Below are positions 4,692-47,894 of a stretch of DNA of 64,000 nucleotides, piece after piece. The position numbers and the translations under genes were made by a program. The DNA is taken from contig CALKPY010000146.1 of NCBI GenBank assembly GCA_937991435.1, positions 1-64,000 of the forward strand. Direction: 5' to 3'. Position 1 is the first letter of the stretch, and every line of letters starts with the position of its first letter. Below the pieces are notes generated by a model. The model saw only the letters and a program-made list of their open reading frames with translations. It ran no database searches and was not told the origin of the DNA. This stretch comes from an uncultured Acidimicrobiales bacterium. GTDB taxonomy: Bacteria > Actinomycetota > Acidimicrobiia > Acidimicrobiales > UBA10347.

Positions 4692-5750
4692 GTGACCGAA
4701 TCGAATCGAACTGTCGTTTACACCGATGGAGCCTGCAGTGGCAACCCTGGCCCGGGGGGCTGGGGGTGGGTCATACCCGATGGCGAATCGGGTTTCGGCG
4801 GCGCCCCCCACTCGACGAATCAACGAATGGAGCTGACAGCTGCGCTCGAGGCTGTGCGCGCGATCCCTGGTCCGTTGCTCATCGTCAGCGATTCGACCTA
4901 TGTCGTGAACTGCTTTCGTGACAGTTGGTGGCGCGGCTGGATCAAACGAGGATGGAAGAACTCGAAGAAGGAGCCGGTCGCGAATCGCGATCTGTGGGAA
5001 CCGCTGGTTGAGCTCTATCAAGAGCGCGATCTCGAGTTCGAGTGGGTCAAAGGCCACAGCGGTGACCGCTGGAACGATCGGGCGGATGAGCTTGCCGTGC
5101 GGGGGGTCACTGCGCAGCAGAACGTCACTGCACAGCAGAACGACACGGCGCAGCAGAACGAGCCAGCCATGTCGAGTCCACCGGCGGTTGGAGCGCCCGG
5201 TGATATGGCTGAGTCGCCGGTGACTGTTGATTCTGACGGATCGGTTCGGGTAGCGGTCATTGGCCATCGTCCGCCAGAGTTGGGCGGCTACGACGACAAT
5301 CCCATAGCAACCCGTGTGCGGGGTCAGCTCACCGAGATCTTCGCGGCGAAGGCACAGCTTCATGGTGCAATCACCGTGCTCACTGGTCTTCAGCTGGGGG
5401 CTGAACAGTTGGCCGCAGAAGCCGCGCTCGCTGCCGGGGTGCCATTCATCGCGGTGCTGGCGTTTCCAGATCCAGCGGCACGGTGGCCAAAGGCATCTCA
5501 GAATCGTTTCGATGCGTTGTTGGAATCAGCATCTGACGTCGTGGTGCTCGCCTCGAAGGTTCCGGAGTCGACCCAAGCGGCGGCCAAAGCCTTTGGACGA
5601 CGAGATCGCTGGTTGCAATCTGAAGCGCAGGAGGCTGTCATTGTTTGGGATGGCAAGGACCGTTGGTTGGGTCGTTCAGTAAAGGACTTCGAGCGGGCAA
5701 TTGGTGACGATGTGTGGCTGGTGAGCCCTGCTGGGGCTTCTGAGATGTGA
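4692..5750 (+). CDS. Ribonuclease HI fused to a C-terminal SLOG/YpsA-like nucleotide-binding domain
   Basis: N-term VVYTDGACSGNPGPGGWG, QRMELTAALEA, SDSTYV, WVKGHSGDRWNDRADELA (RNase HI catalytic set); C-term VIGHRPPELGGY...VLTGLQLGAEQLAAEAALAAGVPFIAVLAFP (SLOG-like). Confidence 0.85.
   Translation: MTESNRTVVYTDGACSGNPGPGGWGWVIPDGESGFGGAPHSTNQRMELTAALEAVRAIPGPLLIVSDSTYVVNCFRDSWWRGWIKRGWKNSKKEPVANRDLWEPLVELYQERDLEFEWVKGHSGDRWNDRADELAVRGVTAQQNVTAQQNDTAQQNEPAMSSPPAVGAPGDMAESPVTVDSDGSVRVAVIGHRPPELGGYDDNPIATRVRGQLTEIFAAKAQLHGAITVLTGLQLGAEQLAAEAALAAGVPFIAVLAFPDPAARWPKASQNRFDALLESASDVVVLASKVPESTQAAAKAFGRRDRWLQSEAQEAVIVWDGKDRWLGRSVKDFERAIGDDVWLVSPAGASEM
5106..5159 (+). repeat. Three tandem 18-bp repeats encoding (V/D)TAQQN in the interdomain linker
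   Basis: gtcactgcgcagcagaac / gtcactgcacagcagaac / gacacggcgcagcagaac. Confidence 0.9.
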
Positions 5751-5844
5751 AACCTGTCTCGCGAGTTGCGCCTGGCCTACTCGTGGGCCAGTATGACCGC
5801 CCGGCAGGATCAAGCTTGCTGGGTGAGCGTTCGGTGGAGAATCT

Positions 5845-6480
5845 GTGTCTGAAGCTTTTGATGCACACGACGAAGTGCTTCATACGGGCTCGATTCTCGA
5901 CGAGCTTCTCCTTGCCTACGGGCCGGAGAGCATTCCTACTCCTGCTGATGAAGCAGCGGTTCATGATCGGCGCTTGGCCCAGCCGCCACGTGCTGCATTG
6001 CGCCGCAAGGCCGTCGCGCGTGCCAAAGAACGTCGAGTTGCGCCAGCTGACCGGCGCCTGATCCAGCGTCGATCACCGATAGCCAACAGCGACGCTCCAG
6101 TTCCGACTGCGGTGGCAGCGGCCAGCGTTCGAGTCGTTCCAGCAGCTGTTGCCCCGCTGCCCGAGCCAGTGCCTGCTCAAGTGCACCGCGAAGCTCAGGT
6201 GCCTGCACCCGTTGGTTGTCAAACTTCGGCGTTCGTCACCGCGATCGGTCGTGGCCAAGGGGCCGATGCTGATGCAGCACCAGCAGAATCCGCAGACCGC
6301 TCCCAGCGTGATCTGCAGGCACTGTTGCCCGCTGAACCATTTGGTGACTATCTCGAAGTCGAGTCCAAGTGGGATGCTTTCGAAGCGGCCACAGGGGAGA
6401 CGCCTGCGACGTTGGATCCCGCGGATGAAGCTCTTCTTGACGGCGGCTTTAGCTTGCGGCGCCGTCCCCGCCGTCGCTGA
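5845..6480 (+). CDS. Hypothetical Ala/Pro/Arg-rich protein
   Basis: 211-aa ORF, GTG start, 3' end overlaps the convergent SRPBCC gene. Confidence 0.5.
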   Translation: MSEAFDAHDEVLHTGSILDELLLAYGPESIPTPADEAAVHDRRLAQPPRAALRRKAVARAKERRVAPADRRLIQRRSPIANSDAPVPTAVAAASVRVVPAAVAPLPEPVPAQVHREAQVPAPVGCQTSAFVTAIGRGQGADADAAPAESADRSQRDLQALLPAEPFGDYLEVESKWDAFEAATGETPATLDPADEALLDGGFSLRRRPRRR

Positions 6481-6904
6481 CAAGACCGTCGAGGCGCCTG
6501 AGTGTCTCGTGCATGGCTGGCAGGTGCCGCTTCGGCCAGCCGACGATCTCGATACATATTGGTGCAACAGCCGTTGACCAATCGAATGTCTCGGTGACGA
6601 GCGTGCCGCCTTGCGCCGGTTCCAGTTCATAGCGCCATCGATGTCCGCCCATATGCGCCCACGCGATCAGACGGTCCTGTTCAAACTCTTTTACCGTGCT
6701 TCGAATGGAATACGGGATCCCGAGTTTCATTCTCATGCCGAACTTGGTGCCCAAGGTCAGCTGGTGCGGGTTAGAACGGGTTGATGAGGTAACCGTTCCG
6801 CTGCCGTCGAAATCTGCGTGCGCCGCCGGGTCCGCGAGAACAGCGAAGATTGTGGCAGCGTCGGTTGCGATCGTTCGTTGGACCGAAACACGTTTGTTCG
6901 TCAT
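6449..6904 (-). CDS. SRPBCC (START/polyketide cyclase-like) family protein
   Basis: VSVQRTIATDAATIFAVLADPAAHADFDGSGTV; WRYELEPAQGGTLVTETFDW. Confidence 0.8.
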   Translation of the reverse strand: MTNKRVSVQRTIATDAATIFAVLADPAAHADFDGSGTVTSSTRSNPHQLTLGTKFGMRMKLGIPYSIRSTVKEFEQDRLIAWAHMGGHRWRYELEPAQGGTLVTETFDWSTAVAPICIEIVGWPKRHLPAMHETLRRLDGLVSDGGDGAAS

Positions 6905-12600: not shown

Positions 12601-14265
12601 ATGGCTGATGTCACGATGCCCCAACTGGGCGAAACCGTCACCGAAGGAACGATCACCCGCTGGTTCAAGCAGCCCGGCGAGCACGTTGCACTCGACGAAG
12701 TGCTGTTCGAGGTTTCAACCGACAAGGTGGACAGCGAAGTCCCATCGCCGGTCGAGGGAACGTTGACTGCAATCGTGGTCGCCGAAGGCGAAACCGTCGA
12801 CGTGGGTGTCGTTCTGGCCACCATTGGAGATGCCGCAGCGGCACCCGATGCAGCGACCGAATCAGCGCAGGCCCCCGAAGCAGCGGCGCCACCGGCGCCT
12901 GCCGCCCCGGTTGCCGACGTTTCACCAGCACCTGCCGCCGCGGCGGCACCTGCTCCACCTGCACCCGTTGCGCCTGTTGCCGCTGCAGCCACGCCAACGC
13001 CGCCAGTCGCTGAACCGACTGTGTCTTCTGTCGAGCCCGTTTCTGCTGGCGGTGAATCGACGCCCGAAAGCGGCACCTTCCGCACCGAAGTCGCTGCATC
13101 GAGCGCGGGTATGTTGTTGTCGCCTGTTGTGCGGCGCCTGATCACCCGCAACTCGCTTGATGTTGCATCAATTACCGGGACTGGCGTCGGAGGGCGAATC
13201 ACACGAGCCGATGTCGAAGCCGCAATTTCGCAACAGCGCCAAGGTGCGACTGGCGCTGCCGAAACCACCCACGTAGATGCAGCCGATCCGAACGCAGTTG
13301 CACCTGTAGGTGCGGCCGTTGCCACAGGTGTTGCCGCCGCCGGAGTCGCTTCGGTTGCTGTTGGCACTGGCTCTAATGCTGGCTCGGCTGCTGACACATC
13401 AGCGGGCGCGCCGCCAGCGAGCGCTCCTGCCGTCGATGCGCCGCCGCAGGCGTCTGCGCCGGTTGCCGATCCTGCGCCGGTTCCCGCTGAACGGGTTACG
13501 GGAGCAGCGGAACGTGTTGTTGCGGTCGTCGCCCCGCTTCCTGTGGGCCAACGAGACGAAGTCGTTCCGTTGAACCGCATCAGGCGAATGACGGCTGACT
13601 ACATGGTTCAGTCCAAGCAGGTCTCGCCTCATGTGCTGACGGCAGTCGAAGTCGATTTTGAAAATGTCGAGCGCAGCCGCAAGGCGCACCGAGCCGAGTT
13701 CAAAGAACAAGAAGGCTTCAGTCTGACCTACCTGCCGTTCATCAGCCGGGCGCTCGTCGATGCGCTCCGTGATTTTCCGCACATGAACGCATCGATGGGG
13801 GAGCACGAGCTGATTGTGCACGGCGCCGTGAACCTCGCGATCGCAGTAGATCTCAACTTTGAAGGACTGCTGGCCCCGGTCGTCAAGGGTGCCGACGGCA
13901 AACGGCTTCGGACTATTGCTCGAGACACCGTTGATTTGGCAGCGCGAGCTCGTGCAAAGCAGCTCACCGCTGACGAAATTACCGGCGGAACATTCACGAT
14001 CACCAACGCCGGCCAGTACGGCACGATGATGCAGTTCCCGATCATTAACCAACCTCAGGTCGCAATCTTGTCGACCGACGGAATCCGTCGCAAACCCGTG
14101 GTGATCACCGACAACTTCGGCAACGAAACCGTCGGTATCCACTCGGTGGGCGTCCTGGCTCTTGCCTGGGACCACCGAGCCTTTGACGGTGCCTACGCCG
14201 CAGCGTTTCTTGATCGATTGCGCACCATCATCGAGACCCGCGACTGGGAGGCGGAGCTCGAGTAG
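12601..14265 (+). CDS. sucB: 2-oxoacid dehydrogenase E2 (dihydrolipoamide succinyltransferase type)
   Basis: Lipoyl motif EVSTDKVDSEVPSP, PSBD LSPVVRRLITRNSLDVASITGTGVGGRITRADV, catalytic DHRAFDGAYAAAFL; long Ala/Pro linkers. Confidence 0.93.
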   Translation: MADVTMPQLGETVTEGTITRWFKQPGEHVALDEVLFEVSTDKVDSEVPSPVEGTLTAIVVAEGETVDVGVVLATIGDAAAAPDAATESAQAPEAAAPPAPAAPVADVSPAPAAAAAPAPPAPVAPVAAAATPTPPVAEPTVSSVEPVSAGGESTPESGTFRTEVAASSAGMLLSPVVRRLITRNSLDVASITGTGVGGRITRADVEAAISQQRQGATGAAETTHVDAADPNAVAPVGAAVATGVAAAGVASVAVGTGSNAGSAADTSAGAPPASAPAVDAPPQASAPVADPAPVPAERVTGAAERVVAVVAPLPVGQRDEVVPLNRIRRMTADYMVQSKQVSPHVLTAVEVDFENVERSRKAHRAEFKEQEGFSLTYLPFISRALVDALRDFPHMNASMGEHELIVHGAVNLAIAVDLNFEGLLAPVVKGADGKRLRTIARDTVDLAARARAKQLTADEITGGTFTITNAGQYGTMMQFPIINQPQVAILSTDGIRRKPVVITDNFGNETVGIHSVGVLALAWDHRAFDGAYAAAFLDRLRTIIETRDWEAELE

Positions 14266-16052
14266 TGCCCGTCGCCATTGACCACTCGTTGGCTTCGCTC
14301 GTTCCCGAAAGCACATCGACCGACGTTCATTCGCGCCATCTGCATGTGCGATGGATCGGCAAAGTCGGCTACGACGAAGCCTTGACGCTGCAGCGTGGCC
14401 TGTTACGTGGCGACCACAACCATCTGCTCCTCGTCGAGCATCCACCGGTGTTCACCGTTGGACGCAGCGGCGATCTCGCGAATATTTTGGTCGAACCCGA
14501 TGAATTCGGCGCGATCGTGCGCCACGTCGACCGCGGCGGCGACGTTACCTTGCATGCCCCCGGTCAACTGGTTGGCTACCCGATCGTGACTGTTCCCGGC
14601 CGCGGCGGCTTGGTCGAGACGGCGAGGTTCGTAGCGTCGATCGAAGATCTCCTTATCGATGTCTTGGCCGACCTCGGGTTGCCGGGTGCACAGCGTCTCG
14701 ATGGTTCAACGGGTGTCTGGCTCGATGCTGACAATCACAACGCACGAAAGATTGCCGCAATTGGCGTGCGCATCAAGCGCGGCCGGTCAATGCACGGTTT
14801 CTCATTGAACGTCGACATTGATCCGGCGTGGTTTGGTCGTCTCGTGCCATGCGGCATCGCGGACAAACCAGTCACGACCTTGCGGTCCGAGGGCGTTGAC
14901 GCGACGATGCAAGACGTCGTCGATGCAGTCGCGGTGCGCTCAGAGGGTCGCTGGGGAACGCAGTCGGTTCACAGGGCCGACGTGGCATGGAAGCACCGCG
15001 TCGAAGATCTGAGCGCCTTCTCGCGAGGGGCGGGTGCAGGTGACCCGGTTCGCGCTTCCGCTTCGGTCATCTCCGACGTCGCCGACGAAGAGCTTGCCAA
15101 CGAACAATTCGCCGCCGACTCGGTTCTCAAGCCACAAGGCACCCCGGTGCGATTGCTGGGCCGGCTCGCTCAAGCCGGAGTTAGCGACGGACTCGATACC
15201 TCTGCCCGTAAACCAGATTGGATGCGCGTCAAAACCAAGATGGGGCCCGAGTACCGGCGTCTCAAATCAGTCATGCGCAAACTCGATCTGGTGACCGTGT
15301 GCGAAGAGGCCGGCTGCCCCAACATCTTCGAATGTTGGGCTGACGGCACCGCGACGTTCATGATCAACGGTGAGCGATGCACTCGGGCGTGCGGCTTCTG
15401 TCTCGTCGACACCCGTAAACCGCTGCCCGTGGATCTCGACGAACCACGCCGGGTAGCAGAAGCTGTTGCTCAGATGGGCCTCAGCTACGCCGTCATCACG
15501 ACCGTTGCTCGCGACGATCTGGATGACCACGGGGCTTCAGGTTTCGTGAACACGATCGCGGCGATCCGTGAAACGCTTCCCGATTGTCGAGTTGAGGTGC
15601 TGATCAGCGACTGCAAGGGCGATAGCACGGCGCTCGACGCCATCTTCGAGGCCCGCCCAGATGTGCTGAATCACAACATCGAGACGGTTCCGCGATTACA
15701 GCGAGCGGTGCGACCGTCTGCGGGTTACGCCAGGTCGCTTGCGGTGTTGGCGAGAGCCCGCACGGCCGGGTTGACGACGAAGTCGTCAATCATTGTGGGC
15801 ATGGGCGAGAGCCTCGAAGAGGTCGTTGACACAATGGCTGACCTTGCCGGAATTGGTGTGGGCATCGTCACTATCGGTCAGTATCTACGCCCCACAACGA
15901 ATCATCTTCCGGTGCAGCGTTGGTACACCCCCGATGAGTTCGCTCATCTCAAACAGGTCGGCGAACAGCTGGGGTTGGCTCATGTCGAGTCTTCGCCGCT
16001 TACCCGCAGCAGCTATCACGCGCGAGAGGCCGAAGCGGCGGCCCTTACGTAG
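14265..16052 (+). CDS. Fused lipoyl(octanoyl) transferase LipB and lipoyl synthase LipA
   Basis: LipB: RGGDVTLHAPGQLVGYPI, KIAAIGVRIKRGRSMHGFSLNV, FGRLVPCGI; LipA: VCEEAGCPNIFECW and CTRACGFC cluster motifs, LNHNIETVPRL; uninterrupted 595-aa ORF. Confidence 0.93.
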   Translation: MPVAIDHSLASLVPESTSTDVHSRHLHVRWIGKVGYDEALTLQRGLLRGDHNHLLLVEHPPVFTVGRSGDLANILVEPDEFGAIVRHVDRGGDVTLHAPGQLVGYPIVTVPGRGGLVETARFVASIEDLLIDVLADLGLPGAQRLDGSTGVWLDADNHNARKIAAIGVRIKRGRSMHGFSLNVDIDPAWFGRLVPCGIADKPVTTLRSEGVDATMQDVVDAVAVRSEGRWGTQSVHRADVAWKHRVEDLSAFSRGAGAGDPVRASASVISDVADEELANEQFAADSVLKPQGTPVRLLGRLAQAGVSDGLDTSARKPDWMRVKTKMGPEYRRLKSVMRKLDLVTVCEEAGCPNIFECWADGTATFMINGERCTRACGFCLVDTRKPLPVDLDEPRRVAEAVAQMGLSYAVITTVARDDLDDHGASGFVNTIAAIRETLPDCRVEVLISDCKGDSTALDAIFEARPDVLNHNIETVPRLQRAVRPSAGYARSLAVLARARTAGLTTKSSIIVGMGESLEEVVDTMADLAGIGVGIVTIGQYLRPTTNHLPVQRWYTPDEFAHLKQVGEQLGLAHVESSPLTRSSYHAREAEAAALT

Positions 16053-44711: not shown

Positions 44712-44948
44712 ATGGCGCTGTCTGAGGCACACCTTGTCCACTTGGCTTGTCCAGAGGACAAAGGCTCGTTGATTTATCTGGGTGAAGACGAAGGGCTCTA
44801 CAACCCCCGGCTTCAGCGGCTGTACCGCATCGACACGGGTATTCCGATCATGTTGATCGACGAAGCCGATGCCGTCGATGACATCAAACACGCAGCGATC
44901 GTGGCGCGAGCCGAATCGGAAGGGCTGCGTCACACGCTGACGTCGTAG
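44712..44948 (+). CDS. Trm112-family protein
   Basis: HLVHLACPEDKGSLIYL...LYRIDTGIPIMLIDEA. Confidence 0.85.
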   Translation: MALSEAHLVHLACPEDKGSLIYLGEDEGLYNPRLQRLYRIDTGIPIMLIDEADAVDDIKHAAIVARAESEGLRHTLTS

Positions 44949-45032
44949 CCCTCCTGCAACGATTCGTGAGACGTAGGGCATCGGGATCACTCGCCACGGT
45001 TGGCTTTACTTTCGCGTGACGGGCGCCGATAG

Positions 45033-46355
45033 ATGGGCATGACTGTTGCCGATGCACCGCTGGTTCCGCCAGCGCGCCTTGCCGCCTTGCTTGCAGCCCG
45101 CCGTCATGAGATGGGTCTCGGTCACGTCGAACTGGCTCAACGATCGCGTGGCGCGTTCTCACCGTCATACCTCGCGAGCGTCGAGCGCGGAGCGGTTTCG
45201 ATTGGCGAACATGGGCTCAGCCAACTCGTCGATCTTTACGAAATCGAAGCAGGCCCGCTCATTCCCGACCGAAGCAAGCTGATTCTCGACCTCGAGGCCC
45301 AACGCATGTCCGTTGGGCCCACCGCCGTTCCTTTCCAAGGCTCGACGGCCGAGGAGGTCTTCGAGCGTTATGTATCGTTGCTCTATCTTCTGCGCGACGA
45401 GCGACCCGGTCGGTTGCTCACCTTGCGCGACGACGACCTCGATGTGCTGGGGTCCGCCTTTGGGCACTCGCGTGACCGACTGCGTGACGAACTCATCGCG
45501 GTCATGTCCGCGGCCCAAACAGCAACCACATCTTCGGCACTCGCGAGGCGTCTCTCAATAGGCGCAGCGGGACTGCTGGTCGGATGCACCGCCGCTGGCT
45601 CGCTCGTACTCGTGGGATCAGGATCCAGCGGACCGGGCGCGCCGGTCGCAGCAGGCGAGCGACCTGCAGCTGCTCTGATCGGTTTGACCCAGGGCCAGAC
45701 CAACCCTGCAGCCTCTGGTGACGTCATGCAAGGCACGGTCCGCCCCGATTCGCCAGCGCGGTTGCGAATCGACTCGATCTCGCCATCGGCCTCATTGGCC
45801 GGAACTTCATTGCCGGCAGCAGCTGACGGTGGCAGCGTGGCGCTCGTGTCCGCAGTCTCGTCGCTGCAGCCAGCCCTCGACGTCGTGCCAGACGCCCTGA
45901 CCCGCAACACAGACCCAAATCCCTCGGAACTGACGCAGCTGCAGCGAATCGAGGCTCATCTTGGATTCGATATTGCCTCACTTGCCCCGGGCTGGACCGT
46001 CATATTTGACGGGCCGAGCACATCGCACGAAGGCATCACCAGTCGGGTGCAGCGAACGATCACCTTGTTTGTTGATGATGACGCCACGATCGAGCACGTG
46101 AGCGAGGTCTTGATGCACGAGGTTGGACACACCATTGATCTGGATCGCTTAACAGACGAGCAGCGCCACGCGTGGATTGCACTACGTGGCATGCCGTCGG
46201 TCTGGTGGGCCGGAAACGGGCTGACAGACTTCGCAGTTGGCGCTGGAGACTTCGCCGAGGCTGTGTCCGCTTACACCACTGGTTCGGCATCGCACAGTGT
46301 GTATGGCGACTTCACGCCTGAACAGATTGAGTTCGTCGCGGCAATCGTGGGCTGA
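45033..46355 (+). CDS. XRE-type HTH protein with TM segment and C-terminal HExxH metallopeptidase-like domain
   Basis: HTH LAALLAARRHEMGLGHVELAQRSRGAFSPSYLASVERG; TM LSIGAAGLLVGCTAAGSLVLVG; HEVGHTIDLD at 46116-46145 with downstream DFAEAVSAY. Confidence 0.85.
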   Translation: MGMTVADAPLVPPARLAALLAARRHEMGLGHVELAQRSRGAFSPSYLASVERGAVSIGEHGLSQLVDLYEIEAGPLIPDRSKLILDLEAQRMSVGPTAVPFQGSTAEEVFERYVSLLYLLRDERPGRLLTLRDDDLDVLGSAFGHSRDRLRDELIAVMSAAQTATTSSALARRLSIGAAGLLVGCTAAGSLVLVGSGSSGPGAPVAAGERPAAALIGLTQGQTNPAASGDVMQGTVRPDSPARLRIDSISPSASLAGTSLPAAADGGSVALVSAVSSLQPALDVVPDALTRNTDPNPSELTQLQRIEAHLGFDIASLAPGWTVIFDGPSTSHEGITSRVQRTITLFVDDDATIEHVSEVLMHEVGHTIDLDRLTDEQRHAWIALRGMPSVWWAGNGLTDFAVGAGDFAEAVSAYTTGSASHSVYGDFTPEQIEFVAAIVG

Positions 46356-46448: not shown

Positions 46449-47894
46449 ATGACCGCTGAACAAGATTTCCGCGTCGCAGACCTGTCCCTGGCCGAGTTCG
46501 GCCGCAAAGAGATCCGCTTGGCTGAGCATGAGATGCCCGGTTTGGTCTCGCTGCGTGCCCGATATGGCGACGAACAACCTCTCGCAGGCGCCCGTATCGC
46601 CGGTTCGCTACATATGACCATTCAGACCGCGGTCTTGATCGAGACTCTTGTGGCGCTCGGTGCCGATGTCCGCTGGGTCTCGTGCAACATCTTCTCGACG
46701 CAAGACCATGCTGCAGCGGCTGTTGCTGTTGGTCCTGACGGTACGGTCGACGCCCCTTCAGGTACCCCTGTATTCGCTTGGAAGGGCGAGACGCTTGAGG
46801 ACTACTGGTGGGCGACAGAGCAGCTGTTTCACTGGCCAGACGGGCAAGGCCCGAACTTGATTCTCGACGACGGCGGCGACGCCACAATGATGGTGCACAA
46901 GGGCCTTGAGTTCGAAAAAGCCGGAAGCGTACCTGCCGCCGCAGATGACGACAGCGACGAGTGGAAGGTCATTCTGGAACGGCTCCGCGAGATTCAGGGT
47001 CGCGATCCACAAATGTGGCATCGCGTCGCACCTGCGATCCGAGGGGTCAGCGAAGAAACGACAACTGGCGTGCACCGCCTGTTCCAAATGGCCGAAGAGG
47101 GTTCGTTGTTATTCCCCGCGATCAACGTCAATGACGCGGTCACGAAATCGAAGTTCGACAACCTCTACGGCATTCGCCATTCGCTCGTCGACGGCATTAA
47201 TCGTGGAACCGATGTAATGCTTGGCGGCAAGGTTGCAGTCATCTGCGGCTATGGCGATGTCGGCAAGGGATCCGCCGCGGCGCTTGCAGGTCAGGGATGT
47301 CGCGTCATGGTGACCGAGGTCGATCCGATCTGTGCGCTGCAGGCAGCCATGGAAGGCTTTGAAGTCGTTCGTCTCGAAGACGTCATGGAGACCGCAGACA
47401 TCTTCATCACGACAACAGGTAACAAGGACATCATTTCCGCAGACCACATGGCCCGCATGAAACATCAGGCAATTGTCGGCAATGTCGGACACTTCGACAA
47501 CGAGATCGACATGGCGGGCATCGAAAAGATGAGCGACGTGGTTCGGGTGAACATCAAGCCTCAGGTCGACGAATTCGTATTCCCTGACGGTCACTCGGTT
47601 CTCGTACTCAGCGAAGGACGCCTACTCAATCTCGGCAACGCGACTGGTCACCCGAGCTTCGTGATGTCGTTCAGCTTCACCAATCAGGTGCTCGCCCAGA
47701 TCGAGCTTCACAAAAACGCTGAGTCGTACTCAAACACCGACGTTGTGACGTTGCCGAAACAACTCGATGAAGAGGTGGCCCGCTTGCACCTTGACCATCT
47801 TGGTGTGCGACTGACGACGTTGAGCCAGGAACAAGCTGACTACATCGGGGTGCCTGTAGAAGGGCCTTACAAGCCTGATCATTACCGCTACTGA
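46449..47894 (+). CDS. ahcY: Adenosylhomocysteinase
   Basis: [53 protein letters not shown]-terminal [10 protein letters not shown]. Confidence 0.97.

Follow-up and report, generated by a model that had tools for sequence, protein, structure and literature searches.

The window, the whole 64,000-nucleotide stretch of DNA analyzed, encodes a protein in which a cytoplasmic module derived from BldD is followed by a single membrane pass and a gluzincin-like protease outside the cell, an anatomy that we regard as secure. The complete gene (45033..46355, + strand, as are its parts and its two neighbors given below) is an intact ORF of 440 codons with an ATG start, and specifies in order an HTH domain, a BldD-C-like domain, a transmembrane (TM) helix, a linker and a zincin domain. 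Our computations show that both cytoplasmic domains are homologous to those of BldD, that one TM segment with positive-inside flanks is present, that the zincin is modeled confidently and its catalytic residues do not vary, and that the fusion is conserved. This combination of parts is not a chance event, because at least 36 other full-length homologues from whole-genome and GTDB searches retain every one of them. The most likely mechanism, to which we nevertheless give slightly less than an even chance, is that of a surface protease on a tether, which a dimerizing or partner-binding BldD-type module holds and may also gate.

The cytoplasmic half is homologous to BldD

A preliminary description had proposed an N-terminal XRE-like HTH, and the fold of this XRE/BldD-type domain (residues 13–72; 45069..45248) is confirmed by several approaches. 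Pfam HTH_31 matches residues 15–70 (E 4.8e-5, just short of the curated cut-off), the HTH is matched in 15 of 15 family members, and the top Foldseek PDB match for this part of the AF2 model is the BldD DNA-binding domain 2ewt, with an rmsd of 1.4 Å over 60 residues. A second, BldD C-terminal-type domain (residues about 80–159; 45270..45509) had been overlooked. PF21179 (BldD-like_C) matches residues 109–156 with an E-value of 1.8e-4, below its curated cut-off, and NF050110, the NCBIfam BldD model, spans residues 16–157 with an E-value of 7.4e-10 and 38.8 bits, short of the curated 250 bits. When a profile of 15 homologues is compared with the PDB, it matches 2ewt, the DNA-binding domain of BldD, at E 1.1e-4 and, collinearly, the C-terminal domain at E about 2e-3, and a profile of the second domain alone finds the BldD C-terminal-domain structures with an E-value of 1.9e-4. 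Alignment to true BldD orthologues by hhalign gives 99% across both domains and 96.7% for the C-terminal domain alone. Together, the profile searches, hhalign and the AF2/Foldseek comparison make firm a homology that falls below the cut-offs of Pfam and NCBIfam: the entire cytoplasmic half, residues 13–159, is homologous to BldD. The membrane family is nevertheless distinct from true BldD, which lies apart from it in a tree with support of 100/100, and the window's genome also encodes a true BldD (L050) with an intact RQD-x8-RADD signature.

Membrane topology and the zinc-peptidase domain

The only hydrophobic segment in the 440 residues is a TM helix at residues 176–194 (45558..45614), with a Kyte-Doolittle mean of 2.05. 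The single segment described earlier therefore stands, with its limits moved from about 170–192. In 37 of 38 homologues, positive charge is greater in the flank that precedes this helix than in the one that follows it, which by the positive-inside rule supports a single-pass, N-in/C-out topology. The HTH would thus be cytoplasmic and the zincin outside, on opposite sides of the membrane as originally suggested and separated by the TM segment, rather than on the same side as in the IrrE/ImmA-type layout. Beyond the helix, the low-complexity stretch that had also been noted is present and disordered (residues 195–300; 45615..45932), with low pLDDT in the AF2 model up to about residue 293. Its length ranges from 15 to 156 amino acids in homologues, which argues against rigid relay of a signal through the linker.

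The C-terminal peptidase domain (residues 301–440; 45933..46352) is modeled by AF2 with a pLDDT of 94.4 as a small gluzincin-like fold. The HEVGH zinc-binding/catalytic motif (residues 362–366; 46116..46130) and the downstream GDFAE (residues 405–409; 46245..46259), whose E409 is the presumed third zinc ligand, form the pattern H362-E-V-G-H366-xx-D369 plus G405-D-F-A-E409; the catalytic residues, including the H, E, G and H of the first motif and D369, are invariant in 33 aligned fusions, as is GDFAE. In the model, H362 and H366 lie within helix 353–371 and E409 within helix 404–416, which is the gluzincin order. Foldseek ranks the minigluzincin abylysin (4jiu) first with a probability of 1.00, but the match is weak (E 0.027, TM-score 0.33–0.43); IrrE and selecase are also among the nearest solved folds, with E-values weak at 0.03 at best. 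Comparison of the domain with Pfam and PDB families by sequence gives only scattered matches, every one below cut-off. The zinc metallopeptidase suggested earlier from HEVGHTIDLD and the E of DFAEAVSAY is supported, as a predicted protease. The predicted extracytoplasmic placement of the peptidase is well supported, because 49 of 57 stand-alone homologues of the zincin bear an N-terminal signal/anchor segment.

Family members and gene neighborhoods

The titles of the named full-length fusions (L071–L099) are all Acidimicrobiales, Acidimicrobiaceae or Acidimicrobiia, and their genes occur in three kinds of neighborhood. The first is that of the window, where a Trm112-like gene of 78 codons (44712..44948) lies 5′ of the fusion gene and ahcY, encoding adenosylhomocysteinase (about 46450–47894; first ORF start 46392), lies 3′. 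This placement, given in the preliminary description, is borne out insofar as the upstream ORF is Trm112-like, and synteny comparison finds the same gene order in several other families. The Trm112 likeness was recognized by eye, the ORF matching zero Pfam families at 1e-5, and the ORF is possibly a divergent, cysteine-poor version. A promoter/terminator scan and Rfam gave zero matches. Elsewhere in the window, a single 595-codon ORF at 14265–16052 encodes an apparent LipB-LipA fusion, with lipoyl ligase A/B at residues 41–223 and radical-SAM lipoyl synthase at residues 313–526.

In the second neighborhood, genes for an ABC ATPase and an FtsX/MacB-type permease lie upstream of the fusion gene and two class I (Cys-type) tRNA-synthetase-like genes lie downstream; fusions beside the ATPase and permease are seen in L081, L083, L089, L092, L093, L098, L099 and L036. 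At these loci, the fusion may be tied in function to an ABC system of the envelope. The third neighborhood consists of fusion genes in tandem pairs.

The membrane module is itself modular. Directly upstream of a full fusion gene, and overlapping it, two loci carry a tail-less HTH-BldDC-TM gene (L084:4992-5585 followed by 5582-6718; L077:84-644 followed by about 632-1837) whose product ends in ...LVLVK. Each tail-less protein and the adjoining fusion are likely paired partners, and these gene pairs suggest a hetero-oligomer. Zincin-less membrane modules are found at a different conserved locus, together with a two-component system, an inositol monophosphatase, a DinB-type polymerase, DUF3040 and TgpA. 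Around such a gene, X, the order is IMPase, RR, HK, X, NUDIX, DinB, DUF3040, TgpA, and the outside tails of the HTH-BldDC-TM proteins (L043–L049 and L056–L062, for example L048:6191-7174) are Pro-rich or contain ‘xxIGDGxxIER’-like repeats. In another order of the class, L156 (G462) encodes a BldDC-TM protein whose long repeat tail is rich in D, S and G, and L175 (G339) encodes a BldDC-TM-tail protein, apparently without an HTH. The zincin is also found as a stand-alone protein, including a signal-anchored one in the window's own genome (L051:3901-4881, G000:C88). A single origin of the fusion would fit the zincin tree, in which 37 fusions lie apart from the 57 stand-alone domains (support 99/88), but finds no backing in the membrane part, whose tree fails to resolve fusion from zincin-less members.

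The HTH differs from BldD in its DNA-reading surface

The HTH of the fusions is acidic and its recognition helix degenerate. The median net charge of the domain is −2, compared with +5 in true BldD; zincin-less members of the family stand at −3 and tail-less members at −3.5. Among the regions compared, variability is highest at the exposed, often acidic positions of the recognition helix, which have an entropy of 2.39 bits; the whole HTH has 1.89, the C-terminal-domain core 1.42 and the zincin 1.49 bits. At position 46, 23 of 33 sequences carry E or D. In the five BldDs compared, the recognition helix hardly varies, and its conserved basic form is missing from the fusions. These features argue against DNA reading of the BldD kind, although an acidic net charge alone is no proof that DNA binding has been lost. 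No BldD-box-like site is present in the upstream interval 44950–45033, and such sites are no more frequent across the window than in shuffled sequences, but an HTH this divergent need not use that box. With the positive charge and the near-invariant helix of BldD gone and the box absent upstream, the DNA-binding sensor envisaged in the preliminary description is not supported, nor is its alternative of ‘DNA-associated cell-wall proteolysis’.

A membrane-tethered one-component regulator could still be imagined, with the zincin as sensor or processor of an external cue and the HTH as a cytoplasmic domain that binds DNA, perhaps after proteolytic release, in a manner likened to CadC or ToxR-type regulators. 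The HTH retains its fold and has as its closest match the DNA-binding domain of BldD, which is itself a DNA-binding regulator (PMC4151990); proteolysis is known to activate membrane-bound one-component regulators (PMC7593790); and differing recognition helices could reflect differing targets among paralogues. We nonetheless consider such a regulator unlikely, at roughly one chance in four, given the lost charge, the lack of any excess of BldD boxes, the existence of tail-less and zincin-less modules, and the poor conservation of exposed recognition-helix positions, which extends to the members beside ahcY.

The degenerate HTH surface would also fit a simple surface protease whose BldD-type part is only a decayed membrane anchor, and stand-alone signal-anchored zincins do manage without any such part. 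We judge this improbable. Y113, R121, R132, D135 and L139 of the C-terminal domain stay invariant in the 33 aligned fusions and module-only members are kept, which together imply that the module has some role by itself.

Partial conservation of the c-di-GMP signature

In BldD, c-di-GMP is bound through the signature RXD-X8-RXXD, and mutation of either motif abolishes binding (PMC4151990). At the corresponding position (45393..45437), the window protein has R121-D-E123-x8-R132-x-x-D135, that is, RXE-X8-RXXD. Three of the four signature residues, R121, R132 and D135 (R114, R125 and D128 of BldD), are invariant in the 33 fusions and also in zincin-less members. The fourth, D116 of BldD, is replaced by E in the window protein and varies among its homologues, so that the complete signature is absent, and equivalents of the BldD contact residues N118 and R130 have been lost in the family. 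The ligand itself is very likely present in the host, because its 3.7-Mb genome (G000) has 23 GGDEF and 16 EAL domain matches.

These observations bear on the idea of an inside-out switch in which binding of c-di-GMP would dimerize the BldD-type domain and so turn the outside protease on or off, all within one polypeptide; LapD/LapG offers a functional likeness. The three invariant residues, the glutamate at the fourth position and the many GGDEF and EAL domains would be consistent with such a switch. However, the D116 position is unconserved, two contact residues are gone, BldD needs both motifs for binding (PMC4151990) and the three kept residues may serve folding instead, and we accordingly rate a c-di-GMP switch as a long shot. 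Similarly slim are the prospects for the broader idea of a BldD-derived membrane receptor that would transmit the state of a cyclic dinucleotide or other cytoplasmic ligand across the membrane to the attached surface metalloprotease. Were it true, second-messenger control of surface proteolysis would reside within a single polypeptide.

Discussion

We propose that the fusion is a type II single-pass membrane protein, in which a small gluzincin-type zinc metallopeptidase would be carried outside the membrane on a flexible stalk while the BldD-derived module inside, HTH plus C-terminal domain, dimerizes or binds a partner and thereby anchors, clusters or gates the protease. In this tethered-protease mechanism, the HTH may now mediate contact between proteins, as it does in RodZ, and no longer recognize particular DNA sequences. 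The protease could act on envelope proteins or peptides, and control would presumably run from inside to outside.

The fusion is neither BldD, by the tests that define BldD, nor RodZ, but a new combination of known parts. Its two cytoplasmic domains and their order are those of the Streptomyces c-di-GMP-dependent developmental repressor BldD (PF21179, NF050110). BldD, however, is soluble, has a mass of about 18 kDa and lacks a TM segment, whereas the fusion is membrane-anchored and bears its protease outside, and it has lost both the RXD aspartate and the basic recognition helix. In RodZ, an XRE-type HTH binds MreB and not DNA (PMC6946637). RodZ and the fusion both place such an HTH inside, followed by a single TM helix and an extracytoplasmic part, which in RodZ is variable, but the RodZ HTH belongs to HTH_25 (PF13413) and that of the fusion to HTH_31, and RodZ has neither the BldD C-terminal domain nor the protease. 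HTH_25 has no match in the window's genome. The idea that the membrane-BldD family might replace RodZ was examined among 148 relatives: 14 genomes have a strong RodZ-type HTH_25 and 27 have the membrane-BldD family with an overlap of 0 (hypergeometric P 0.05, uncorrected for relatedness), but most have neither. MreB is found in 145 of these relatives, including the window's genome, but has no match in the fusion-bearing relative G074 (95% completeness), which speaks against RodZ-like use of MreB there.

Other systems resemble the fusion in one half or in the joining of the two. The minigluzincins (abylysin 4jiu, jannalysin) and selecase have a compact gluzincin-like fold like that of the zincin, which by contrast would be extracytoplasmic and tethered; the similarity is weak and no sequence match is significant. 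IrrE/PprI and other HTH-zincin proteins likewise combine both domains in one polypeptide, but in the fusion a TM helix lies between them. BlaR1/MecR1, CadC and ToxR, as in the fusion, join membrane and sensing with proteolysis or an HTH. CadC and ToxR are not known to contain a protease domain. BlaR1/MecR1 carry their sensor outside and their metalloprotease inside (PMC7593790).

In actinobacterial development, BldD is known to act as a soluble master repressor that depends on c-di-GMP, and the literature that we searched, which covered few subscription papers, contains no description of a membrane-bound relative. If our reading is true, a transcription factor was turned into an envelope protein when BldD domains moved to the membrane, gave up the surface that reads DNA and acquired a protease on the outside. 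The family offers a direct, testable case of whether a membrane-borne BldD C-terminal domain senses c-di-GMP. More broadly, the analysis defines a conserved, uncharacterized family of gluzincin-like surface peptidases in Acidimicrobiia.
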